A stretch of DNA of 64,000 bases from Sipunculus nudus (Eukaryota > Annelida > Sipuncula > Golfingiida > Sipunculidae): positions 52,697,370 through 52,761,369 of the forward strand of contig CM049307.1 in the NCBI GenBank assembly GCA_026874595.1, written 5' to 3'. The translations under genes and the position numbers were made by a program. Below are positions 3,001 through 57,469 of this stretch, one piece after another (the stretch's first letter is position 1; every line of letters begins with the position of its first letter). The notes under the pieces are model-generated. The model ran no database searches, was not told the DNA's origin, and saw only the letters and a program-made list of their open reading frames with translations.

Positions 3001-3611
3001 GCATAAACTTTCATTATAATTCAGACCTTTATATGACTATAGTCACGACTCTTTTCATACTGGCTGGATTTAATGCACACTGAAAGTTATAACATCGGAC
3101 AATCACATGCAGTTCACATGACAGTTTAATCAGGCAGCTATCTGACTGTGACTTCAGCAGTGCTGCTACAGATGTAATCCAGCAGTGTGAACTCTGCAGG
3201 GAGTCTGTATTGTTCTCTTCATCAGCCACAGAAGCATTCCTTGTCTGTAAACTAACCCAGTCAGTGAATGAGGCCCAGGTGTGGGAGGTGTTTAATAGTG
3301 GTAATCTTGATATACCACTATCCTGCTGCTGTGTACTTCTAACAGACCTGAGTGGTATGTTATTACCATTTGTGTAATGGGGTTTGTACATTAAGGTAAG
3401 CTCAGAATGATATTTATTTATAATCTGAATAGCCTTATTGGTAAGGTATTTGTTTGGATGTGTAGCATGAGAAAAATGGGAATTGGATAATGTAAATATA
3501 ATGGAATAACTTTGGAAATGATATATTCTGACTAATGATCTTCCAGATAAACAGCTTCAAATAAAAAAAAAAGAAAAAGAAAAATTATATGGATTTATTC
3601 AAATAATTATT
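1..3611. other. non-coding AT-rich stretch
   Basis: I see no coding exon with splice sites and no recognisable protein in any frame. A TATATA run near 718-724 is followed by a less AT-rich stretch (about 750-1050) containing possible 5' splice sites (AAG|GTAACA near 1000). It could be a non-coding first exon of the downstream DCUN1D3 gene, but nothing in the sequence proves this. Short open frames here look random. Confidence 0.4.
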
Positions 3612-4189
3612 AGGGCCCCGCTTGACAAGCGGGTGCCCTATAGTGATCACTGTGTCAGTCCATCCTTCTGTCCATCCGTCCTTCCGTCAGTGACACTTTA
3701 TTCGTATGCGATAACTCAACAACAACATACTGCAGCTTTCCCAAATTCACAGGGTTGATTGGTACTTATGAGGGCTCCAGACCTATCGAAGTATAGACCT
3801 GTCGAAATTCCAATATGGCCCCCATAGCCCAATCGCTGATTTTCTTTCGCGCGCGATAACTCAACAACAACCTACTGCAGCTTTCCCAATTTCACGGGGA
3901 TCATTGGTGCCTATGAAGGCTCCAGACCTATTGAATTACAGACTGGCTCAAAATCAAATATGGCTAAAAGATTACATTCGGTGATTTTCTATTGCACACA
4001 TTATTTCAGACATATCTTGTTTAATATCATTTGATCCAGTAGGATTTTTTCCATCATGCATATGGACAAAAACCTGTTTCTGTTTGTCATATTTTTCAAA
4101 TTTAAATTAATTTTTCACCCATATGTAAAATAGTCCAGCACTTGCAGAAACGCGGGGCCGTCTGAGGACCATTGTCCGACCACATCTAG
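3611..4189 (+). mobile_element. HINE-like (non-autonomous Helentron-type) element
   Basis: The left end begins TAGGGCCCCGC and folds on itself (CCGCTTgacAAGCGG). The inverted partner GCGGGGCC lies at about 4152-4159, not at the right tip. It is followed by a small hairpin, GGACcattGTCC (4166-4177), and the element ends in CTAG with T next (4186-4189). This offset inverted repeat plus 3' hairpin plus CTAG end is the Helitron2/Helentron plan. Inside are TCCG/TCTG-rich simple sequence and two copies of a ~145-bp unit starting GCGATAACTC at 3708 and 853 of the same kilobase (3853). No protein is encoded, so it is non-autonomous. Exact left boundary is uncertain. Confidence 0.7.
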
Positions 4190-37737: not shown

Positions 37738-37846
37738 ATGGGAGCATATGCCAGCGGCTTCCAGCCGGAGCAGGGACAGTCAGTCGCTGCAAAAAGCACT
37801 CCCAGTCAGCCGGACTGGATAACAGCACATGCTACAGCAACAGGCT
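37738..37846 (+). CDS. EF/DD gene exon 1 (N-terminus)
   Basis: Codes residues 1-36 plus one base. The ATG has G at -3 and G at +4. The exon ends GGCT|GTGAGT in phase 1, and its T joins exon 2 to give leucine 37. The encoded segment is serine/alanine/glutamine-rich and probably disordered. Confidence 0.75.
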
Positions 37847-40800
37847 GTGAGTATGACTGTTTTTAAGCTATTGTTTTGTTGATTATAGAATTTTTTTGAC
37901 AGAGAATATTATTGTACTGACAGGTAAACCCTTCATTGATTATACCTACAAAGTTTTATGCATTAATAAGGGGGGAAATCAGCTGTTGTAACATATTTGT
38001 TCACAGCTGGTATATCTTCCTTTTTCAGTAATTTTCCTCTTTTCTTCTATTTATTTTTAAAGAGTAATCTGTATAATCCATGGTTAAAGGCAGTAATCTG
38101 TATTTAACTATAATAGACCTGATTTGAACAAGTGAACTTGGTGTGTATGCAAGTCTGTGTATACCACTTATTTTGTTACAGTCTCTGTGTATATCTATTA
38201 CATAAAGCATCATAAACACTGTAAAAATATTTACTTATATAGATTATTATATTTTTATTATATATACAGATTGAAAATATCTTCAGGTTCCAAAAATTAG
38301 TTCCATTTCAACCATATCTGATTGAAACCATTGGAATGCTTTTAATTAAAGCACAAGATCTGCAATGATGTATTGACTGTTAGTTTATGTGTAATAATTG
38401 TGTACATGTATTTGTGTGTAAATATCATTTGGCTTGTTCAGCTTTAATTATGAATATAAATATTTGCAGTGGCCATTGTGGAAGTTGAACGCCTGTGGAT
38501 ACGCTTCAAGCAGCTTGGATGTAACAGGGATGGGGTCCTTACACAAGAAGCCTTAACAAAACCAGCAGTTAACAGTGATGTCTTCATGAAAAATGTAAGC
38601 TTAAACCAGCAGTTAACAGTGATGTCTTCATACAGTGCTGTCTTCATGAAAAAATGTAAGCTTAAACCAGCAGTTAACAGTGATGTCTTCATGAAAGATG
38701 TATGGTTAAACCAGCAATTAACAGTGATGTCTTCATGAAAGATGTAAGGTTAAACCAGCAATTAACAGTGATGTCTTCATGAAAAATGTAAGCTTTTTTA
38801 ACCAGTACACAACAGTGATGTCTTCATTAAAAAAATGTAAGCTTAAACCAGCAGTTAACAGTGATGTCTTCATGAAAGATGTAAGGTTAAACCAGCAATT
38901 AACAGTGATGTCTTCATGAAAAATATAAGCTTTAACCAACAGTTAACTGTGATGTCTTCATGAAAAATGTAAGCTTTATTAACCAGTAGACAACAGTGAT
39001 GTCTTCATGAAAAATGTAAGCTTAACCAGCAGTTAACAGTGATGTCTTCATGTAAATATGTAAGCTTAAACCAGCAGTGAACAGTGATGTCTTCATGAAA
39101 AATTTAAGCTTAAACCAGTAGACAACAGTGATGTCTTCATGAAAAACGTAAGCTTATAAATAATTAGGAAAAATTTCTTTTGGATGGAATTTAGAACTTA
39201 AACTGTGAGATCGATACAACTCCCCTGGAATTGTTATAACAATTTAACCTAAATATATCATTCTGAGGAATTCAGGCTTCTGCCATGTGAGTAGTCCTTC
39301 ATGTGGAATACGCCACAAGCCATGTTTCCATTCACTTATTGACCTCCCTACTCCCAAGTTCATTTTGTGCATAAATTCTTAAACAAGTATTTGCTTTCAC
39401 TTTTTTGCTCCATTTTTCCCATGTACAATCATGCATAGCAGTATGTCACTGCAAAATATTCCTGGAAGTCCTGGAATCCAGACCCACTCCAAAATCTATT
39501 GAATTCATCAATGGCGAGTTCCTAAAATGCCCTAAATATTTCATGAGATTCCATTCATAATCGCGTGAATTATGTTTTTAACAAATACACTCGAAATGGG
39601 ATAAAGTCATAATCTCATGGCAGAGGCAATTATGGATATTATTTTTAATTATGTTATATATTATCATATATGCTTCATATGAAAGAGGACAATTATTTAT
39701 ATGTATCTAAATTTTAAGTACATTATCTTATATACTTTTTTTCAGCAATTAAAAAAGTAAAACTTTGCTATTGGGTATCAAGATGTTATTTCAGTGGTTT
39801 GCATGTACATATATTATTTGATATTTGATTTTTAAAATCAGATTCACCATTATACAATAATATTATTACAATTAACAAGTTATAAGGTACATATATATAT
39901 AGCATATTTATTTATTTATTTATTGCAATGTATATACCATCAACCTAGTCTTAACAACAGAAATGCTTTCATAAAAATTAAAAAAATACCTGCAGCTGAA
40001 AGTTGTTGATTCGGAATATTTCAACATTTCATATACATTTACAATACATAATCCTTGCATGGATATATCATGCTAGTATCTTCCTGGCTTGTCTTTCAGA
40101 TTTTGGTCACCATGCGCTCACCAGATGGCAGCATTGCCTTTGAAACCTTCTTGAATGCCTTAAAATGGACTGAGGCAGCACATCTTGAATCTAAAATAAG
40201 AGGTTTGTTACAAGTAACATGTTTTCATGTAAATATGTGCATACACATCTGCTTGGTGCATATTGATGTGAATCATATTAATGCTTGATGGCCTAAATTT
40301 TTTGCAACATAAAAAGTTCAATGATTGAAACTTTTTTTTTTTGGGGGGGGCATAATACATTAGATGTGATCAGTCAATCAACTGAGTAAATTATGTATAC
40401 ACATTTTATACATTTGGAACTGGCATCAAAAATATTTACTGGTAAAGAACAGCTGTATTTTTCTCTATGTTATATATTTGTAGGTACTTTTCTCTATGTT
40501 AGTTTTTGTTTGTTTTTTTTCTGTGTTAAACATATGTTGGTATTTTCCCCTATGTTATAAATTTGTTGGTATTTTATCTCTATGATATATATATGTTGGT
40601 ATTTTTCTCTATTTTTTATATTTGTTTGTATTTTTCTGTGTGTTATACATATGTTTGTATTTTACTCTATGTTACATATTTGTTGGTATTTTTCTGTATG
40701 TTATATATTTGATCGTATTTTTCTCCATTTTATATATTTGTTGGTATTTTTCTCTGTGTTATACATTTGTTGGTATTTTTCTCCATGTTATATATTTCTT

Positions 40801-43800
40801 GGTATTTTTCTTTATGTTATATATTTGTTCGTACTTTTCACTGTGTTATATATTTGTTCGTATTTTTCTGTATTTTATATATGTGTCAGTATTTTTCTCC
40901 TAATCAGGTGTGTTCCGGCTGTTTAATGGTGGTTACCCCGTTGGGAGAGAATTATTGATCAAGATTTTACACAGAACTTACCCAGAAGATAGTCAGGTGA
41001 TTCTTACCATTCATTTAAACCAATTCCTTAAGAAATGAATCCACTGATCATATAAATTCATATTGTATAATTAATTATACAGAATATACCCTGTCTAAAT
41101 TCATGCTTTGTTGCTATCTATGTTTAGATTTCTCACCATGACGAAAGTCTAATAATCATATAGTTAGGCCAAAAAAATAAAAGGTATGGTTCTCAGGCAC
41201 CGCCCACATCAATTTTAACCCCCCCCCCCCCCCCGGCATCAACAATTTTTATTTTGATATTTATCTTTCAAGAAGATAAATAATACAATTTATGTAGTGC
41301 TTTAATCTGTTTAGCAAAAAAAATTTCCCTCATCAAATGACATTTTTATTGAAACATACAAAAAAGGACAAAAATAAAGTACCGCCGCCTGCAGTCCTAA
41401 TTTATGAAAAAAGGCCCTGAGAACCAGGCCTTACTGTCCTTGTGGTAATGCACAATGTCTTTTGGAGTTACTGACAGACAGAATGTCAGATGATAGCTTT
41501 CTTGATTTTATGACAGGTGGCACCAGCTTCATTCACGTTCACGCTGCAGACATAAATGCTTATATCTCCAGACTCGTTTGACCAATCAGGAAAAAAATTT
41601 GACACAAATGTAGCCCTTGGATAGCTTTATAATATACACAAAAATGTTGGCTCCTCCTGCAGCCATTTTGCAGAGTGTCTATCTGTTTGTCTGCTGTGGG
41701 ATAAAATCACTCATATCTCTGCAGTGGTTTGACGTTTCAACCTGAAATTTTGCATGTGTATACATCTTGGATAGTTTCTCGTTCAAATAACAGGTGGCGC
41801 CACCTACAATCATGTTTACATGGCAGACTTCTAATATGTAACACACGTAACTCTATTTCCCCTTGCCTATCAATCCATGCCTCACTTAACCCGTCCTACT
41901 CTGATTTTGGCAGATACACGTAGTCGCTTGTGGACTACCCGTATTCTAGTTATCACACATGTGGAGGTCTAAGGGTAACTCGTTCCATAATTTTGGTGCA
42001 GCCACTGAAAAAGAACAATCACCATATGTTCTCATATGAGCAGCTGGTTGACACAGAAGATGCTGGTCACTGGAGAGTAAACTATGTGATGGCTGGTATG
42101 GCTGCACAAGCTCAGCAAGGTGGCTATGAGCACTACCCTTAACACGTGTGTTTGAGAGAAAATACTTTGAAGCTTATTCTCTGTGGCACAGGCAGCCAGT
42201 GGAGTTGCTGTAGGATGTCTGAGATACTGTCTCATTTACTTTCTTTACTACAATCTTGGCTGCAGTGTTGAGCACACACTGAAGCTTTTTCGTAACTGAT
42301 GCCGAGATATTAATCAGGAGCGAGTTACAGTTGTCAAGCCTAGATGTAATAAAAGTGTGCACAAGTTTTTCAGTTGCTTCTCTGGTGAGCATGTGTCTGA
42401 TGGCAGCAATGTTGTGCAGATGGAAGTATTAGGATTTGCACACAAACTTCACATGCTGCTCCATGTAACATTTATTATAATGCTTTGTATTATGCATACA
42501 AGGTTTATGGAGTATAAATATAAATTAGTACCCATAAGGCCAAAAAAAAGTATGATTCTCAGGCACTTTTTAAAAAATCAGTGTGGGCAGGTGATTTCTT
42601 TTTTTTTTACCCTTAGTATGTTTTGATAAAAATGTCATTTGATCAGGGAAAAGCATGAAAGTAACAGAATTTTCTGGCTTAACAGGTAAAAGCACTACAA
42701 AACAATAGAAATCTTATCAAGATTGGATTTTTCTATCTTCTTGAAAGATGAAAATAAAAATAAAAATATTTGATGCAGGGGATTAAACTTGATGCTGGCG
42801 TTGCCTGAGAATAATACCTTTTTTGGCCTAACCTGTGTATTTTTTGAGGAAACAATTAAATAAAATAAAATATCATATAGATATGAGGATTTAATAGGTA
42901 CTTCCATAGTTGTATGATTTCATCATTACCCGGTAGTTTTAAAAGCAAATTTTAACTTCCATGTAGGTGTATTATCACTCTTATCATTAAGTTGTATTAG
43001 AGATGAATATGATCTTAGAATGGTTTACATTGAATATCTTATCTATTCTTCTTGTGAAGCACACTTGATGTAATATTCAGTATAGAGCAATTTAAATCCT
43101 GTAATTATTTATATCATATGGGTGCACTGAATATTATGGTAAATGAAGTACTCAGTAACATTGGCACATGTACTTACCTAATGATATCTTCTTTTACAGC
43201 AATCTATCCGCCGGGTGGCTGATATATTTATGCAGCAGATGGATACCAGGAATAAAGGTAAGCACTACGAGTGTTTAATTATCAGGTAACAGGAGTTAGT
43301 GTTGTGAGGATATCCGTTTTTCATATTATAATAATGATATTAAGTTTACCGTAATATATCGTGAAATTGTTATATCAGTGTCAGGTGTGGTAACACTACT
43401 GACAATTGTGGTATGACCTGTCACTGGGATCAACTAAAAGCCAGCGAATCAGAGATTTGGAGAACTTGCTGTCAGCTTATTGACTGTTATAATTTTGAAC
43501 ATGCTTATATCCCATATTTTGATATTATAGAGATAAGTTCTCTCTAAAAATACATGTGACTAATTTAAATAAATATAATTCTTGAAAATTAATGTTTTCT
43601 TGACACACACAATCCTTTATATATGTCACTTTTGTCTGTCTTGTGTCCAGATGGCAAATGATTGGAACTATATTTGAATTGAAAGATTTAATATATTTAA
43701 AAAAAAATAAATTATTCCTCCACAGGTGTCAAAGAACCATCCAATTTTCAGATCAGTCCTGGTATGTTTTTGACAGTGCAATGTTCATACACTAGGCCAG

Positions 43801-46800
43801 TTTTAAATGTTTTGTCAACTAGCAGTCACTTTTCATCCACTATATTGATTTCAAAACTGTGTTTTAGCTGTTCTTTTGAATACTTATATATTTTAACATT
43901 TTTTATCATTATCATTTGCCAGATTATACTTTGGTATTGTGTGTAGAGTACATTTCATTATGATGCTACTTCTAACATTCTGGGTACTACTTTCATAACT
44001 TTGTTGATTTAGTCAGGATTTTTTTCTGGGTTTGTGTGGACATCACTTTAAAATTTTACATTTTTAGTACATGAAAATTTTATGCTGTGTGGACTTTTTG
44101 GGGATTATATCTGCTTTCTATCAGTAACACTTCTGTGGACTTTTGGGGACTATATCTGCTTTCTATCAGGAATTAACACTGTTGTGTGGACTTTTTATAA
44201 TACTATAATTGTCATCTATCTATAACTGTTTGTTGTGTAGATATTGGGGTGTTTACATTTGCTCAGAATCTCTATGATGACAGTATTTTTTCTCAGCTTG
44301 GTTAAGCCAATCACACATTCTCATCCTTTTTGCCAGCATAGTTGTTTTGTCAGTAGCAGGGCATGTTACGTACATACATGTTATGATCAGAAAATATAAA
44401 AAAATTGACAAAATGTTTTACAACATTAATATTTGTTTATATTCATTTATTTTCACACTATTTACATCAGTGATGTAGGACTTGAGTCCGGATTTAAACT
44501 CGAGTCCAATTTTTTAGGGACTTGTACTCAGACTTTAACTCAATTTAAGGGTCCTGGACTCAGACTCTGAGGTAAGGACTCAAGAAATCAGTCCGAGTCC
44601 ATCTCAAGTCTAATAAAAAAAAATACTGTTATGTATTATAAAGATATATGTACATGTACAACTACAAACAGAATATTACAAAATACCAACACAATATGTG
44701 GCAAGCTTTGCTCAGCATCAGGAGCTATAAATGTAATTAACCACCAAAAGTAAAAGTATGTGTGAACGAACTTAAATATGTACATGATAATCTGAAATTT
44801 CCATTTTAAATTGCATTTTCAGGATATCAGACTGAGACTTGGATTCAGGTCCAAAATGACAGAGACTCGAAGAAGGTTGACTTTTGACTAGAAACCCAAG
44901 GACTCGGACTTGGACTCGAGTGGCCGTGACTCGGACTTGCACTCGGACTTGGATGGTGTGGACTTGACTACCTCACTGATTAACATATTTTCATAAAATC
45001 CAAATTCAGACCAGTAATAATATAAACCGTACTTATCATAGGGTTACTCCAATCTCATTCATTATATAAACAGAAGTCAGAATAATTGAAAACTAGACTC
45101 TTCTAGAGCAGAAACTGGTACTATCAGATGACACATCACTTTGCCCAGTCCATGAAGAACAAGATTTTTAATGACAAATTAATAAGGAATCTCAGTTTGA
45201 AATTTTTTTTATGATCTGGTTTTGCTTATAACAGGAGACACAAAGCAGTCATACTTTGTAGACTTTGTGATGATCTTGTCTTTATTTATAACAGGAGATA
45301 CAGAGGAGTCACCGTTTGTTAATTTTTTTTATTATTCATTATTTGTTTTTAGCAGGAGAAATAGAGGAGCCTAATTTAGTAGACTTTGTGATGATCTTGT
45401 TCATATTTATAACAAGAGAAATAGAGGAGTCACAGTTTGTTGACTTTGTTATGATCTTGTCTTTATTAATAACAAGAGAGATAGAGGAGTCACAGTTTGC
45501 AGACTTTGTGATGACCTTGTCTTTATTTATAACAGGAGAGATAGAGGAGTCGCAGTTTGAAGTGTTTGTGATGATCTTGGCTTTATTTATAACAGGAGAG
45601 ATAGAGGAGTCACAGTTTGTAGACTTTGTGATGATCTTGTCTTCATTTATAACAAGAGAGATAGAGGAGTCACAATTTGTAGACTTTGAGATGAGCTTGT
45701 CTATATTTATAACAAGAGAGATAGAGGAGTCACAGTTTGTAGACTTTGTGATGCCCTTTTCTTTATTAATAACAGGAGAGATTGAGGAGTCACAGTTTGT
45801 AGACTTTGTGGTGATCTTGTCTTTATTTATAACAAGAGAGATTGAGGAGTCATGGTTTGTATACTTTGTGGTGATCTTGTCTTTATTTATAACAAGAGAG
45901 ATAGAGGAGTCAGAGTTTGTAGACTTTGTGGTGATCTTGTCTTTATTTATAACAAGAGAGATAGAGGAGTCAGAGTTTGTAGACTTTGTGATGACCTTGT
46001 CTTTATTTATAACAGGAGAGATAGAGGAGTCACAGTTTGTAGACTTTGTGGTGATCTTGTCTATATTTATAACAAGAGAGATAGAGGAGTCAGAGTTTGT
46101 AGACTTTGTGGTGATCTTGTCTATATTTATAACAAGAGAGATAGAGGAGTCACAGTTTGTAGACTTTGTGATGATCTTGTCTATATTTATAACAAGAGAG
46201 ATAGAGGAGTCAGAGTTTGTAGACTTTGTGGTGATCTTGTCTATATTTATAACAGGAGAGATTGAGGAGTCATGGTTTGTATACTTTGTGGTGATCTTGT
46301 CTTTATTTATAACAAGAGAGATAGAGGAGTCAGAGTTTGTAGACTTTGTGATGCCCTTTTCTTTATTTATAACAGGAGAGATAGAGGAGTCACAGTTTGT
46401 AGACTTTGTGGTGATCATGTCTATATTTATAACAAGAGAGATTGAGGAGTCATGGTTTGTATACTTTGTGGTGATCTTGTCTTTATTTATAACAAGAGAG
46501 ATAGAGGAGTCACATTTTGTAGACTTTGTGGTGATCTTGTCTTTATTTATAACAAGAGAGATAGAGGAGTCAGAGTTTGTAGACTTTGTGATGACCTTGT
46601 CTTTATTTATAACAGGAGAGATAGAGGAGTCACAGTTTGTAGACTTTGTGGTGATCTTGTCTATATTTATAACAAGAGAGATAGGGGAGTCAGAGTTTGT
46701 AGACTTTGTGGTGATCTTGTCTATATTTATAACAAGAGAGATAGAGGAGTCAGAGTTTGTAGACTTTGTGATGACCTTGTCCTTATTTTTAACAGGAGAT

Positions 46801-47274
46801 AGAGGAATCACAGTTTGAAGTGTTGTGATGATCTTGGCTTTATTTATAACAGGAGAGATAGAGGAGTCACAGTTTGTAGACTTTGTGATGAGTCTTCCCA
46901 GGGACACAGTGAATGCTCTGATGGAGTTCCATGTGGTCCCTCAAGAAATTAATGCTGAGGCTCACAGGGCATTCACAGCCTTCTCACATCAGTCACAAGT
47001 AGGTGTAACTGGAGTTGAAATATATTAAAATTCTGAAATATATAGAAAATTTAACATATAAAAGCAAAATAGAAATGTAAGATGACTGTACATATTGAAA
47101 AATGGACAAAATAAGGGGAAAATTGTAACAGACAGTAACTTTGTATTTTAAGTACAGAAGAGTACAAGTAGGGGAAATATTTGTTACCTGTCTGGAGGTT
47201 TTGAATATAAATACTTATTGTTAGTGCGATTTGCTAGTCTTAAAATACTTAATTATAATTGATATAACAATAGT

Positions 47275-47308
<34 letters not shown>

Positions 47309-49348
47309 TAATAATTGATCCTGTTTTTCTTTATTTTAATGACATTGAAGTAATTTATGGACAACATGTTTACTTCACTGACCTAATCTACAGCCGTATG
47401 ATATTTGCAGCAGCCTTACAAAGAAAGCTCTCGTCAGATACCAACAGATGGCATACTCCAAAGGATCGCAGAAAAGGCCTCCTCCAGAGACTGGCTGGTG
47501 CTGGCTAACAAGCTGGGCTACACTGCTGAGGACATCCAGGAATTTGAGCACTTGAATCCAGCTGACCCTACAGGCCAGGTGAGTGCTACATCTTTAATAT
47601 ACCCTTTGTGGATTGGTTTCTGTGGGGTACAGCATAGCCTCTAGTTGGTTCATATTTCTTCAGAGGAAAGGTGAGGTTATTCATTGTTGGCCCCCACCCA
47701 GAGTGAAAGCTTTGCAGGCTTAATTGGAAGACTGTGTCCAACAGTTATATTTCACCCACAGATAATTCAAATTTTTTTCAGACCCTGGTTATTTTTTTTC
47801 AGACCCTGGTTTGACCTGGCTTCTTAACAAAACTGGCTTCTATTTACGGCCTGTTTTTATTAAAAAAGATAAATTAACATGCTTGTCAGACAAAACTTAA
47901 AGAAGAATACGTCAAAACAGTAACCTGTGACTGCCGGTCACTACTTGGGGACACAAATTGAAAACATCGCTGGTACACAAGACTGTGTTTATGAAATTTC
48001 CTTAGATGCCATTTCATCAGATGCAGTCTCTACAATCACGCACCATAGTAAGAATTTTTTTGGGAATCACAGCAAGAGATTGCAGTTGTCCACAGAAATC
48101 ATTCCAGTGTTTCATGTGGCTATTCCATTTATTTTACACCACATCACATGCAGTTGGTAACATTGTTTCCCTCTGGGCACAGGGTGGCTCTTCCATCGAA
48201 ATATATGGGATTTGTACATATAACCGCAACTCATTTTCATGACACTTTCCTGTGTGATCAAGGAAATATGGTATGGTACACAGTACACATCCAAGAACTG
48301 CTTGTTCAGTGCCCTAATTCTGGCGGAGGTTAGGATTAATGTGTGCTTTGTAATTTGAAACCAAAATGGAATTCTACTGAATTACACTGTCCTCAGTTAA
48401 GGAAGCATCCCTGGCAAAATCCTCTAAATTTAAAATCAAACAAAAGGCAGTTTCAGATGAAGATTAGACCCCATAAAATATATATCATATTAAACCTGGT
48501 ATAGAGCTCTTTCTAATGATACATGAATTTAGGAAATTGACATACATACATTTTTAAATTAAACATTTTTAACAAATTTTAAATTTTAAAATGGTACATA
48601 TTTTTAAGCAACCAGTAAAAGCAAACCACCTTTTAATGGGCTAATATCATACTGCATTACAGTATCTCTCAAGTTGTTTTTTTTTTTTTTTCCTCTACCA
48701 TGTTTCTTTCATGTCTATAAATGAAATTTGAATTTTCTTATTGAATCAAATTAAAAATTTCAATTTTAAGTTAGAAAGAAACGTGATACAGGAAAAACAA
48801 AAAAAAATGATCTTTAAGCTAAGTATTTACATCTACAGATTTCCATTTTGGTTTAGGACTACATGCAAGGATGGTAGCACTCGCTTCCTGTCATTTTAGT
48901 TTATATTCTGATGTCACCCAGGCCCAGTGTCTACAGCACCTGCAGGTCCTGGGTGTTTAATCATCCCCATTGGTGGGCCATAACACCAAGGAACCTCCCA
49001 AAGACACACTCATTTCTAAGCGATATACTGCTGTGGGGCACAGCCTTCCCATTTAGCTTGCAGAGCCCTTACCCTGGCTCAGGGCTGACTGTGAAAATCT
49101 CACTGCTCCTCAGCTGAGATTTGAACTCACAATCTTACATCTTTGAGCCCTTGTTACCCCTGAGCCACAGAAACATAGACTGAAAATGGGGTTTATAGAG
49201 TGTATAAATTATGTTTCCTGTGCTGTAGGTATACAGCATGTTGACAGCCTGGAGAGACAGAGAGAGACAGCAAGCCTACTCAGGAACCCTGGAGAAGGCT
49301 CTCAGAGACAGCAACATGAATGACATAGCCATCATGTTACACCCATAA
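37738..49348 (+). CDS. EF-hand / death-domain adaptor-like protein, nine coding exons
   Basis: Joining nine exons by GT-AG sites and phase gives 954 nt, 317 residues. It starts MGAYAS, which fits an N-myristoylation signal. Residues 38-190 align by eye with the four-EF-hand fold of calcineurin B (RLWIRFKQL, DGVLTQE, PDGSIAFETFL, KGxxx, EIEESQFVDFVMSLP). All four loops are degenerate: the acidic residue at loop position 12 is lost in each, and loop 3 is shortened. Residues about 235-317 form a death domain (RDWLVLANKLGY, IQEFE, VYSMLTAWRDR, GTLEKALRD, DIAIML), the fold used in apoptotic and innate immune adaptors. Inference: a membrane-tethered signalling adaptor, with the EF part acting as a protein-binding rather than calcium-sensing module. 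I do not recognise a named family with this combination. Exon structure is predicted from sequence only. Confidence 0.85.
38470..38594 (+). CDS. EF/DD gene exon 2 (EF-hand 1)
   Basis: Preceded by TATTTGCAG. Codes residues 37-78, with EF loop residues N55-x-D57-G58-x-L60. It ends ATGAAAAAT|GTAAGC in phase 0. The last ~36 nt of the exon and the donor are the first copy of the adjacent minisatellite, so which copy provides the real donor is uncertain; the first gives a clean join to exon 3. Confidence 0.8.
38558..39155 (+). repeat. ~44-bp minisatellite made of an exon end plus 5' splice site
   Basis: About 13 units of AAACCAGCAGTTAACAGTG followed by ATGTCTTCATGAAAAATGTAAGCTT. Unit 1 is the end of coding exon 2 and its splice donor. 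Eight units keep GTAAGC at the donor position, two have GTAAGG, one GTATGG, and two have lost the GT. Using a later donor would add repeat copies to exon 2, but in-frame reading meets a stop at about 38736. Confidence 0.9.
40100..40202 (+). CDS. EF/DD gene exon 3 (EF-hand 2)
   Basis: Preceded by GTCTTTCAG. Codes residues 79-112 plus one base, including PDGSIAFETFL. It ends AGAG|GTTTGT in phase 1. The donor is weak at +3/+4. Confidence 0.85.
40445..40900 (+). repeat. ~30-bp minisatellite forming the pyrimidine tract before exon 4
   Basis: About 15 copies of TTGGTATTTTTCTCTATG followed by TTATATATTTG run up to the 3' splice site at 40907. The last copy supplies the pyrimidine-rich tract (TATTTTTCTCC) immediately before TAATCAG. 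The 93- and 114-codon frames through it are artefacts. Confidence 0.85.
40908..40996 (+). CDS. EF/DD gene exon 4 (EF-hand 3 region)
   Basis: Preceded by CTAATCAG. Codes GVFRLFNGGYPVGRELLIKI and onward, residues 113-142, ending AGTCAG|GTGATT in phase 0. Compared with calcineurin-B-type proteins the loop is shortened and lacks acidic ligands. Confidence 0.85.
41164..41433. mobile_element. MITE with TTAGGCCAAAAAA ends, copy A (intron 4)
   Basis: The left end TTAGGCCAAAAAA then GGTATGGTTCTCAGGCA is mirrored by CCCTGAGAACCAGGCCTTA at the right. A second copy with better-preserved ends lies 1.4 kb downstream. Inside are a poly-C run (41219-41234) and TATCTTTCAAGAAGATAAATA. It has no coding capacity. 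Confidence 0.7.
41510..41925. repeat. diverged direct repeat with AGGTGGCGCCACCT palindrome
   Basis: Two diverged ~200-bp copies share CTTATATCTC.GCAG..., TTTGAC, CTTGGATAG and ACAGGTGGC(A/G)CCA. The second contains the perfect palindrome AGGTGGCGCCACCT. The core GGTGGCGCCACC also occurs near 17381 inside the HINE-like element, suggesting this is a fragment of such an element. Confidence 0.45.
41936..42475 (-). pseudogene. CR1/L2-type LINE fragment, 3' end of reverse transcriptase ORF
   Basis: On the complement the pieces AAIRHMLTREATEKLVHTFI, TSRLDNCNSLL and, near 41960-42010, FSVAAPKLWNELPLDL are the family's characteristic C-terminal reverse-transcriptase tail. Frames are interrupted between them and the 5' portion is missing, so it is a dead fragment in intron 4 of the EF-hand/death-domain gene, antisense to it. 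Confidence 0.8.
42535..42831. mobile_element. MITE with TTAGGCCAAAAAA ends, copy B (intron 4)
   Basis: Left end TAAGGCCAAAAAAAA then GTATGATTCTCAGGCAC. The right end is GCCTGAGAATAATACC then TTTTTTGGCCTAA. The ends pair over about 30 bp. Related to copy A at 41164, but its interior is different or inverted in part. Confidence 0.75.
43200..43257 (+). CDS. EF/DD gene exon 5 (EF-hand 4, first half)
   Basis: Preceded by CTTTTACAG. Codes residues 143-161 plus one base, QSIRRVADIFMQQMDTRNK. It ends AAAG|GTAAGC in phase 1, within the fourth EF loop. Confidence 0.85.
43726..43761 (+). CDS. EF/DD gene exon 6, 36-nt symmetric microexon
   Basis: Flanked by CCTCCACAG and GTATGT, phase 1 on both sides. 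It adds 12 residues (VKEPSNFQISPG) without changing frame. Exons 5 and 7 joined directly would give an EF loop of exactly 12 positions (DTRNKGEIEESQ), so this exon interrupts a complete domain and is a strong candidate for alternative splicing. Confidence 0.65.
44091..44215. repeat. ~50-bp tandem duplication in intron 6
   Basis: Two close copies of TGTGGACTTTTGGGGA(T/C)TATATC then TGCTTTCTATCAG, and a third partial copy. CTTTCTATCAG ends each, resembling a 3' splice site, but no coding exon follows. Confidence 0.6.
44467..44979. mobile_element. GAGTC-rich TIR element (intron 6)
   Basis: The left end TCAGTGATGTAGGACTTGAG is mirrored at the right; its complement reads TCAGTGAGGTAGTCAAGTCC. The arms are filled with repeated GGACTC/GAGTCC words. 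It is 513 bp with no coding capacity; a non-autonomous DNA transposon is the best reading. Confidence 0.7.
45230..46852 (+). repeat. 60-bp minisatellite made of a 3' splice site plus exon start
   Basis: About 25 units with an exact 60-bp period over 45421-46800, plus degenerate leading units and a final 57-bp unit. Each reads TTTATAACAGGAGAGATAG then AGGAGTCACAGTTTGTAG then ACTTTGTGATGATCTTGTC. That is the acceptor and first ~40 nt of exon 7. Among the 23 regular units, eight end AACAGGAGA, keeping the acceptor in the right phase. The others read AACAAGAGA, which would shift the site by one base. Because 60 is divisible by three, the array is open for 500 codons (+) and 522 codons (-); neither is a separate gene. 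Confidence 0.92.
46853..46998 (+). CDS. EF/DD gene exon 7 (end of EF-hand 4 and linker)
   Basis: Preceded by TTTATAACAG, the last copy of the repeated acceptor. Codes residues 175-222 after completing glycine 174, with GEIEESQFVDFVMSLPRD then a helical linker. It ends TCACAA|GTAGGT in phase 0. This copy alone continues into unique coding sequence. Confidence 0.85.
47275..47316. repeat. (AAT)n microsatellite in intron 7
   Basis: About a dozen AAT/ATA triplets in a row. Confidence 0.85.
47411..47578 (+). CDS. EF/DD gene exon 8 (death domain, first part)
   Basis: Preceded by ATATTTGCAG. A second AG three bases later would remove one glutamine (NAGNAG-type acceptor). Codes residues 223-278, including the death-domain core DWLVLANKLGY and AEDIQEFEHLNP, ending GGCCAG|GTGAGT in phase 0. 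Confidence 0.9.
48905..49174 (-). mobile_element. tRNA-derived SINE in intron 8
   Basis: The complement starts GTTTCTGTGGCTCAGGGG, an A-box, followed about 40 nt later by GAGTTCAAATCTC, a B-box (49116-49128 on the + strand). Spacing and order are those of a tRNA head. The body continues for about 200 bp without coding potential. The tRNA-like part lacks a foldable complete cloverleaf, so it is not a working tRNA gene. It is antisense to the host gene. Confidence 0.7.
49229..49348 (+). CDS. EF/DD gene exon 9 (death domain end, stop)
   Basis: Preceded by GTGCTGTAG. Codes residues 279-317, VYSMLTAWRDRERQQAYSG and onward to IAIMLHP, then TAA at 49346-49348. This contains helices 4-6 of the death domain, including the conserved tryptophan. 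Confidence 0.9.
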   Translation, partial: VYSMLTAWRDRERQQAYSGTLEKALRDSNMNDIAIMLHP

Positions 49349-53541: not shown

Positions 53542-55612
53542 AACAGAACAGAACAGAACAGAGTTTATTCAGGAAAAAGGCCTCGGGCCCAAAGTTCCAA
53601 ACATTTCAACAATAATTCAATCAAATAATTGCATTAGTAGAACATAAAGTAGCAGTCTTATTATTAATTAATATATAATGCAACAAACACATGTAACATG
53701 ACTGCATACCTTAGTACACAATGTATCTATATTGCCATCATCAGTGAATATGTAACACATACTTTAACCATCTATTATTCTTCGTCTCCTTAAAAAGGAA
53801 TAATATACATAAGCAGCAACATTCATTATCTAAATATGATTGTCTAAATTGAATAATTTAATAAAATTTTGTTCACTTGGGTAATGTAAGTCTTGTCTAA
53901 AGTATTTTATCGTCAAATCATTATATAAAATACATTCTTGCATAAAGTGAGCTTCATCCTCAACAATATTGTATCCATGATGCACACAATATTTACAGAT
54001 CCTCTCTTCACGAGATATATTATTTTGACGACCTATTTCTATAGCCAATTCATGATTGGAGCATCGAAGTTTAGCAAGTGCTATGCGATGTTTCTTATTA
54101 GGAATACAATATAAATACTTTTCAAGAGTTAGCATAGATTTGAAAGCACCATAATAATATAATTTACTACACAACTCAATATCACTATGCCAGTTTTGAA
54201 TAGCCATGTCTTTTATTTTAATTTCAAATTCTTTAATGAATATCTCCAACATACTGTGCCATCCAAACATATCCAAAACCAGACTCAAACAGCAATGTTC
54301 TTACATGAGATACCCAATTTGATTTACCACTGTTGTCTAAATTCATCAACAAACTGTAAACTTGTTTCTGATATCTATGTTCTGGCATATAAAGTAATTT
54401 AACCCAATACTTAACACAACATAATAAACAAGTTACAAACAAAGGAATTCTGCCACAATCCCCTAAAGCTGCTGCATTTGGAGTATTCTGGCCTACATTT
54501 AAAATATATTTACAAAATGTGTACTGCACTCTCTGTATAGTTTCTGATTTCTTAAAGCCCCATAATTCGCATCCATATATTAATACTGGTACTACCATTT
54601 GATCAAAAAGATAAAAGAGATGTTTAGTACTAACATATTTACACTTTTTACTGAATTTTTTAATCATACATACAGCTTTGTTTGCTTGCAAAGCTTGCTG
54701 TTGTTGTGTTTTTGACCAGGATAATTTTGTTGAGAAAAAAATACCAAGATATTTATAGTATGGAACCACTTCTAACTGTTTACAATTTAAATACCATCTT
54801 TCAGCTTTTCGTAAAGGACCACCTTTTCTAAAAACCATAATTTTAGTTTTATCTGTATTAATTTTAAAACCATATTTTTCACAAAAATTGTGCAAGAGAT
54901 TAATCTGTTGCTGAAGTCTACCTACAGTATCTGCACAATTAACCATATCATCTGCAAATAATAAAGTCATTACATTGGAAAGATTATCATTAACATATAT
55001 CCCTTTACAATCACTTCTATGTAACATATTACAATACTCATTTATAAATAAGGAAAATAATAATGGACTTACCATGCAACCCTGCCTGGTACCTAATGAG
55101 CATAAGAAATAATCGGTAAGACCACCGTCAGTTTATATACAAGACTGCATTTTTGAATACATTGATTTTATAACATTTAATATTTTACCATTTATACCTT
55201 GTTTCAATAAGACATACCACAATAAATTATGTTGCACACAGTCAAAAGCTTTTGCAAAATCAATATATAAACAATAAAACCTTCCTTTTCTTTTAACTAA
55301 GTATTTCTGAACTAAAGCATGCAAGACATATGCTTGATCAATGGTAGAATACCCCTTTCTATAACCACCTTGAGACTCGGATAAAATATTCATTTCCTGC
55401 ACATACTGAGAGAGCCTTTTATTCAAAACTTTAGTGAATATTTTTCCTGTAACATTCAATAATGATATCCCTCTATAATTACTAGGATCATTTAAAGGAC
55501 CCTTCTTGTGTAGAGGAAATATGATTGCCTTACTCCATTCACCATGGAATGATCCCTTATTAAAAACACTGTTAAACAAAGTATGTAAAAAGGGCAAAAT
55601 AATTTCTAATAC
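53542..55612 (-). mobile_element. 5'-truncated non-LTR retrotransposon (LINE)
   Basis: Flanked by identical 14-bp direct repeats, so both ends are known. On the - strand it encodes the core of a reverse transcriptase: W-S-K-A/I-PLHKKG, NYRGISLL, SQGGYRKG, YIDFAKAFD, LGTRQGCMVSP and the catalytic FADD. This is followed by a C-terminal cysteine-histidine motif (CKYC, then H...C). The 3' end, near 53542, is a short (TCTGT)n tail. The endonuclease and the start of the RT are missing. One in-frame stop (55133-55135) and a frameshift near 54233-54288 break the ORF, so this copy is inactive. The clade is not certain. Confidence 0.92.
53830..55612 (-). pseudogene. broken LINE reverse transcriptase ORF
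   Basis: The 203-codon and 280-codon open frames are in the same frame, separated by a single TAA. The 152-codon frame carrying the zinc-binding tail is shifted. The upstream 44 codons of the longest open frame (55613-55744) lie outside the element beyond the target duplication and are host flank read through by chance. Confidence 0.88.
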
Positions 55613-55626
55613 TTGAGTATACCAGG
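55613..55626. repeat. target site duplication, right copy
   Basis: TTGAGTATACCAGG, identical to 53528-53541; it marks the truncation point of the LINE. Confidence 0.85.
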
Positions 55627-57469
55627 TTTCTAACTGGACCTGAAAACCTGGAATACTCATGGATATTATAAACAACTTTTCCAAGTCCTGGGAAAATGGG
55701 ACTCTTTTAAATATACACCTGGAATATTCATAAAATTGGACCATAGGTCAATGTTGGCTGATTTGGATATTGTTCCACAGGCTCAGCATAATAGGTTTAT
55801 AAAAGAAGCATGTCCTGGAGTCTGCTGGGGAAACTAACAACAGGTGCAAAGGATTACTATTTGGCTTGCAGGCAACTCCATCAGCCCCATTGTTCAATAA
55901 TATATGTACCAGTTACGATCTTAAGTGAGACTACGTGATGCACATATGTGAATGACTAAAGCCCTGTGTTCCCTCTTATTAGTGTTGTTGTGAATTTGTG
56001 ACCTGGAAAAATGCCTAAAAGACCTGGAGAAAACCTGGAAAACTCCTGGAATATGATCTACCAAGTGAGAACTAAACTTAGTATACTATCTTTGATACCT
56101 TTCATAACATTCAACTCTGAAGTTTTTGTTAATTTTATAAACTGATCCACTCATGCTTTTCTCAACTTGTTTCACCCCTGAATTAGCTGAATCAGCTGAT
56201 AACCCTGCCTTTATTTTATAAACTAGCCTACCCTACCTGTTAATTATTTTGCAATTGAAGACCCATTCGATCCAAAAACCGATGGCCCTTCAATAAAATG
56301 AAGACTGGCTTAAACATTTTAATATTAATAGATAACAGTATTAACACAACAACACCCAAGTGACAGGTGAAAATTTTGTTCCACAGGGCATGCCTAAAGA
56401 TAATTTGAGCAACAGATATGCATAACTTTTTTTAAAACCCTACTTACCATATATTAGCATTTTATTAATAGAACCAAATTGGGTTTATTGATGATCTGGG
56501 AACCCTGTGGAGGGCTTTGATTCAGAGTACAGAGTACAGAGTAACAAACTAAACGGTTTTCTGCTGACAGATGGTGCTGTGATAGCCCCTTTGAAAAATT
56601 GTTTAAAATATCTCAAAATAATAATAATTTATTTAAAATGAATCATTAGATTTATGGAGAAATAAGTAAAATTACCCTCATTAGGACAAGATTTGCATAG
56701 TTCTCAACAGTTCAAGACCAAAAATGTGCATGTGTGGCCACGGAGGAGTTCTGTGACAAACATCCAGTGAGACCACCATCAGTTATAATATAGATGCGCC
56801 TTTATAACAAACTCTGATACCCTGGCTTATCCAAGATTCCTGAATTATATGAAACTCCTGATATGTTAATAGGTTCTTCCTAGTATATAATCATATATCT
56901 AGTCCATTCTATGACCCCTGTCCACCTGTTTATTTGTGATAAATTTATTGCATGGCAGGCTGGCGAAGAAAACTTAATATTCAGTATAACAAATGATAAA
57001 TAAAAATTATTTATAGTCTATCATAGTACCCATGTCCCCATGTTTTATTGTCACAAAAACAACATGCAGACAAGGGTTTAGGGGCGGACTATAGTTTCTG
57101 TGATTCACTGTGTCTTTAGCAAGTGCCATTACATAAGCAGTGAGAACATATTTGTGGCAGTGACATGGTTTTTTGTACTTCCTGTTTTTATAAGGGATAT
57201 AAACACATGTAAACTGATATGTTATGCAAACACCTTGCCAAAACTGAATTATATATGTCTAAATAAAAAGAGATTCCTGAGATAAGTATTGGTCTTTTCC
57301 TTTTTACATGCAGACACAAATCGCAGAGCTTTGAATCTCACTTAAGTGCATATGTGGGGTGGTGACTGCAATGTTCTCTAAGATATATTTAACATTTTAG
57401 TCTCACTTGATGGCTAAAAAAACAGGTGGACAGTGATAGTGGAACTGACTATCTTCATGGTTTCATCCT
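55627..57469. other. non-coding region between convergent genes
   Basis: No exon is visible. Repeated ACCTGGAAAA-like words occur near 55990-56050, and a short ACAGAGT repeat near 56525-56540. Confidence 0.4.

Follow-up and report, generated by a model that had tools for sequence, protein, structure and literature searches.

A 60-bp minisatellite built from a splice junction in an EF-hand/Death gene of Sipunculus nudus, probably an intronic mirage

In the genome of Sipunculus nudus, exon 7 of a gene for an EF-hand/Death protein is preceded by an array of tandem copies of its own 3′ splice site and first bases. Which of these acceptors can serve the gene, and does the array lengthen the protein or leave with the intron? 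We present here the anatomy of this array, the frame outcome of every candidate acceptor, and a comparison with repeats at other splice junctions. The window analyzed is a stretch of 64,000 nucleotides (assembly GCA_026874595.1, contig CM049307.1, positions 52,697,370 to 52,761,369, forward strand), and positions are those of the window unless a contig or segment is named.

The exon boundaries of the plus-strand gene were set by phase and splice signals (Table 1). With 46853 as the exon-7 acceptor, the nine-exon model is 954 nt long and encodes 317 amino acids with no internal stop, and all 8 introns are GT-AG. A putative extra exon near 41400 was dropped, because the join from exon 4 to exon 5 is already in phase without it. 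The predicted protein contains a Death domain (PF00531; Pfam E value, 1.7e-15) and a region resembling calcineurin B and neuronal calcium sensors, for which phmmer gave a calcineurin B chain as the best match (E value, 6.1e-5) and hippocalcin at 0.0011; no EF-hand family was found at the Pfam cutoff. The alignments to hippocalcin and KChIP1 stop at residues 164 and 169, respectively, just N-terminal of exon 7. The start of exon 7 probably encodes the exit helix of the last EF-hand, which would make exon 7 ordinary ancestral coding sequence and the 60-bp array the derived part. A search of the genome with the protein returned eight matches at its own locus, none of them to exon 6, and three weak matches at other places (E values, 0.02, 0.36, and 8.2). 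Between 36000 and 50000, there was no Rfam match to a structured RNA at the gathering score.

Table 1. Positions of the gene model, the tandem arrays, and the features within them
Feature	Position	Strand	Remark
Exon 1	37738-37846	+	Starts at the chosen ATG; gene-model joining
Exon 2	38470-38594	+	Gene-model joining
44-bp array, ~12 copies	38572-39156	+	Copied from exon-2 end and donor AAAAAT/GTAAGC; donor-side mirage
Exon 3	40100-40202	+	Gene-model joining
29-bp array, 15 copies	40455-40899	+	Pyrimidine rich; ends 8 nt before exon 4
Exon 4	40908-40996	+	Gene-model joining
Exon 5	43200-43257	+	Gene-model joining
Exon 6	43726-43761	+	Phase 1 at end; gene-model joining
60-bp array	45211-46896	+	TRF: period 60, 28.1 copies, 88% matches
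Decoy junction copy	45596-45634	+	Same as authentic junction over 69 nt (30 intronic, 39 exonic)
Penultimate unit, 57 bp	46796-46852	+	Two deletions (2 bp, 1 bp); gene frame closes here
TGA	46816-46818	+	Within the 57-bp unit; halts every in-phase upstream extension of exon 7
Exon 7, authentic	46853-46998	+	Phase 1; begins codon 174 with EIEESQFVDFVMSLP
Exon 8	47411-47578	+	Death domain, first part
Exon 9	49229-49348	+	Remainder of Death domain and stop codon
Myosin/dynein junction array	L029, 523-1522		
Myosin/dynein junction array	L036, 2683-3303		
Myosin/dynein junction array	L046, 604-1046		
Myosin/dynein junction array	L057, 1163-1508		
Myosin/dynein junction array	L012, 1823-2299		
Myosin/dynein junction array	L023, 2592-2883		
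61-bp kinesin array	Contig C14, 65439851-65443777; array at 3143-3924 of that stretch		

Each unit of the 60-bp array consists of the last 20 nt of intron 6 and ~40 nt from the start of exon 7. An earlier note on this DNA had read the unit in the same way, and the consensus agrees with the exon at 38 of the 40 leading exon bases and at only 5 of the 20 that follow, but the intron that it called intron 7 is intron 6. The 23 regular units (45416-46795) comprise 19 distinct types and differ from one another by a mean of 5.3 of 60 bases. At column 60, 8 carry G (CAG) and 15 carry A (CAA), and the CAA units present instead an AAG acceptor shifted one base further on; the in-phase acceptor in 8 of 23 units and the one-base move of the AG by a G/A variant are thus as first described. 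The genome search with the protein gave no paralogue that could root the array, so no outgroup polarizes this change. The 57-bp unit carries several substitutions in addition to its deletions.

Upstream of exon 7 lie 11 CAG and 16 AAG copies of the junction, which bears out the earlier picture of a ladder of near-identical 3′ splice sites ahead of the real one. Acceptor strength was gauged by identity to the authentic site, and by this measure nine of the CAG decoys share 33 to 59 of 60 junction bases with it. The decoy listed in Table 1 is identical over 69 nt, so local sequence alone cannot ensure the choice of acceptor. When the whole genome (1.43 Gb) was searched with a single 61-base stretch, the 28 matches returned were all at the array locus. 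Since the search passes over very common words and only one candidate region was scored, it shows no other copy without proving absence. A dispersed satellite was rejected because, within this scope, nothing else matched.

At one end, the copies meet the authentic boundary, and 46853 is the only acceptor that gives an open protein. Two properties of the array suggest coding: the period of 60 and an open reading frame in the frame of the gene, 508 codons long (45292-46815). The 500 open codons reported earlier are therefore real, but the TGA that closes them ahead of exon 7 had been missed. On the antisense strand a frame stays open even longer, for 533 codons; the openness of the array simply follows from its period being a multiple of three. 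Among nine junction arrays in the genome, the period is divisible by three in two (60 and 36 bp) and not in the other seven (44, 82, 31, 53, 77, 55, and 61 bp). Openness and such a period are weak evidence of coding, given the longer antisense frame and the two of nine arrays that have a period of this kind.

Each AG from 45190 to 46853, 205 in all, was tested in turn as the acceptor joined to exons 1 to 6. Site 46853 alone retains the full protein, and none of the 204 upstream sites does; 86 of the tested sites run into the stop at 46816, and the remainder stop elsewhere. All 27 upstream junction copies lead to a premature stop, which nine of the CAG copies reach at 46816, the two 5′-most CAG copies at 45372, and the AAG copies after ~5 to 35 nt. 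The addition of 20-residue blocks by upstream acceptors, as had been proposed, is thus not supported on this haplotype, and an in-frame coding repeat or ladder of alternative exons was rejected because no upstream AG site from 45190 on is stop-free. The distinct changes among the 23 regular units comprise 22 nonsynonymous, 7 synonymous, and 1 stop-type change (a neighboring change makes the last a Trp codon), against a neutral expectation of 21.7, 6.7, and 1.55, respectively; because counts and expectation match, the units give no sign of coding selection.

The 60-bp array is, in our judgment, very probably a “mirage” minisatellite that is intronic and spliced out, so that the protein stays the ordinary 317-residue EF-hand/Death protein. 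This kind of repeat is already known from amphioxus, where the name mirage was given to tandem repeats that straddle exon-intron boundaries in Adh3 and the globin genes BflGb6 and BflGb9 (PMC3087553). The passages of that report drawn on here describe mirages at both boundaries, with splice signals retained in many but not all copies, copy number varying between haplotypes, and concerted evolution inside a cluster. Two BflGb6 haplotypes hold 3 and 6 copies of 150 to 160 bp, and the Adh3 units, as cited there, measure 10 to 72 bp (PMC3087553). The Sipunculus gene resembles these in having units that span a boundary on the acceptor or donor side, splice signals in many copies, and concerted evolution; in the 60-bp array, the unit consensus carries the acceptor, and the signal persists as CAG or AAG in the copies counted above. 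In contrast to the amphioxus cases, as far as those passages describe them, it has ~28 copies of 60 bp and two mirages in one gene (PMC3087553). Among the titles and abstract openings searched, no mirage was found under that name outside amphioxus, and the phrase “mirage minisatellite” had no match in the literature search.

Such a mirage would have begun when a tandem duplication took in the junction of intron 6 with exon 7; slippage or unequal exchange would later have multiplied the copies toward the intron. The copy touching the body of exon 7 would have remained the working acceptor, held by selection on the protein and probably picked by exon definition with the exon-7 donor. We infer that this last acceptor, 46853, is the one mainly used. 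The upstream copies, all within intron 6, would be removed with it, so that the mature protein would be the ordinary one, and such arrays could persist because the protein bears no cost.

The array, known from one haplotype, is homogenized in its interior with the edges left out, as expected of concerted evolution, and this is clear at the 5′ edge. Stretches of 300 nt match the reference at 61 to 77% there and at 82 to 88% in the interior; the last two stretches, at the 3′ edge, match at 67 to 79% without gaps, figures that the 3-bp shift, together with exon-7 sequence outside the repeat, partly depresses. Three of 13 pairs of units ten apart are identical, which points to duplication of several units at once and suggests that copy number is probably polymorphic. 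Edge divergence and duplicate units together look like ordinary minisatellite turnover.

Boundary repeats of other kinds have been described. Human internal tandem repeats, which likewise sit on exon-intron boundaries, are reported to give alternative splicing and novel introns in recent paralogues (PMC2812944), whereas the copies of the 60-bp array probably leave with the intron. Intron gain by tandem genomic duplication, as outlined in the part of PMC4974935 used here, also involves duplication within a gene that affects intron structure, but the 60-bp array shows no new intron or exon. Minisatellites and splicing in Caenorhabditis elegans are treated in PMC4039745.

Two further arrays lie in the same gene. 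In the 44-bp array, the frame does not stay open from any of the 8 downstream GTAAG donors counted; a ninth GTAAG donor, at 39148, is outside the counted pattern, 553 nt on and out of frame. The pyrimidine tract of the exon-4 acceptor consists mostly of the last partial unit of the 29-bp array. Elsewhere in the window, a 145-bp repeat at 3708-3990 shares sequence with a segment of a myosin locus (L030, 1-858) and looks like a member of a dispersed family. Long open frames at 53830-55747 on the minus strand resemble a non-LTR reverse transcriptase.

Junction arrays are present at several places in the genome. A myosin/dynein sample of 40 merged segments (149,331 bp) around 88 exon matches contained 11 arrays with a period of at least 20 bp and at least 3 copies. 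Four of these arrays reach across a domain-match edge, against 0.81 expected under random placement (P = 0.006), and with tolerances of 10, 20, 30, and 50 bp the P values are 0.012, 0.02, 0.03, and 0.063. One of the four zero-distance overlaps (S38, a dynein) arises because the domain match overshoots the exon by 12 intron bases; with the last array base at 1508 and the first exon base at 1513, the array misses the true edge by 4 bases. By inspection and translation, 6 of the 11 arrays cross or adjoin a real junction and carry copies of it, on the acceptor side (31, 82, and 53 bp) or the donor side (77, 55, and 36 bp). The 36-bp array (L029) has ~28 copies at its donor; the weakest case is the 53-bp array, which falls 4 bases short of the exon and whose unit resembles 7 of the first 9 exon bases. 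Three exon peptides, compared with solved structures, are dynein and myosin. On contig C2 (44849337-44852248, minus strand), four separate matches to one myosin stretch (profile ~109-153) are possibly tandem alternative exons.

In a kinesin sample of 26 segments (86,285 bp, 39 matches), 0 of 7 arrays overlap a domain-match edge (0.65 expected). One of them, of 61 bp and ~13 copies, was seen by eye to copy the acceptor of its exon together with the first exon bases, which brings the junction arrays found by inspection beyond the EF-hand/Death gene to seven. On inspection, 5 of the 11 myosin/dynein arrays and 6 of the 7 kinesin arrays hold no junction copies. Domain-match edges lie inside repeats less often (4 of 254, strict rule) than random intronic windows do (162 of 2,110), and the counts with at least one further copy are 8 of 254 and 257 of 2,110, respectively. 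Junction-specific seeding is therefore not established, and we do not claim it: the myosin/dynein result is positive, the kinesin result is negative, and the window counts stand against it. Over eight arrays, 77 of 78 counted decoy copies have a bad frame outcome, the exception being one open, frame-keeping extension of 33 nt.

These outcomes bear on whether the 60-bp array could be an attenuator tuned by copy number, in which decoy-spliced transcripts would run into the stop at 46816, or into one before it, and undergo nonsense-mediated decay, array length thereby setting EF-hand/Death output. All 27 decoys do give premature stops, nine of the CAG copies share 33 to 59 of 60 bases with the authentic junction, and the stop at 46816 is followed by 180 nt of exon 7 and then, in the model, by two exon-exon junctions. 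However, exon definition should disfavor acceptors that lie far from the exon-7 donor, and the amphioxus data, in the passages cited, suggest that mirages do not interfere with regular splicing (PMC3087553). As almost every counted copy in eight arrays has a bad frame outcome, the premature stops here need no selection, and we regard attenuation as improbable. A wider form of the idea is that the genome holds very many splice-junction minisatellites whose copy number is a heritable, fast-mutating dial, a length-dependent share of transcripts going to nonsense-mediated decay and so setting gene dosage, that of the EF-hand/Death gene included; this we hold to be decidedly improbable. Tandem arrays are easily mis-sized in assemblies, and the copy number itself could be off, but a true array that is much shorter is very unlikely, since 19 distinct types among 23 units are not what copies of a single short stretch would give and similar arrays occur at other places in the genome. 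Lengthening of the protein by 20-residue blocks, for which we leave next to no probability, is refuted for the haplotype studied by the TGA that ends every in-phase extension, the failure of all upstream AG sites from 45190 on, and the lack of coding constraint among the units.

Read as an intronic mirage, the array offers a natural experiment in which near-identical acceptors 60 bp apart bear on how the spliceosome chooses a site at equal local sequence. Should the small sample (4 of 254 domain-match edges by the strict rule) reflect how common junction arrays are, genomes such as this one would be places to test whether mirages lead to intron gain, unproductive splicing, or variation in expression.

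Further observations concern the assembly as a whole. Searching for mitochondrial cox1 led to no recognizable mitochondrial contig, and molluscan hemocyanin had no match, as was also the case for the controls. The genes on contig C123 (L002 and L003) read as bacterial by eye, and contigs C60 to C89 carry nine near-equal cox1 frames of 577 to 578 amino acids that are possibly bacterial.
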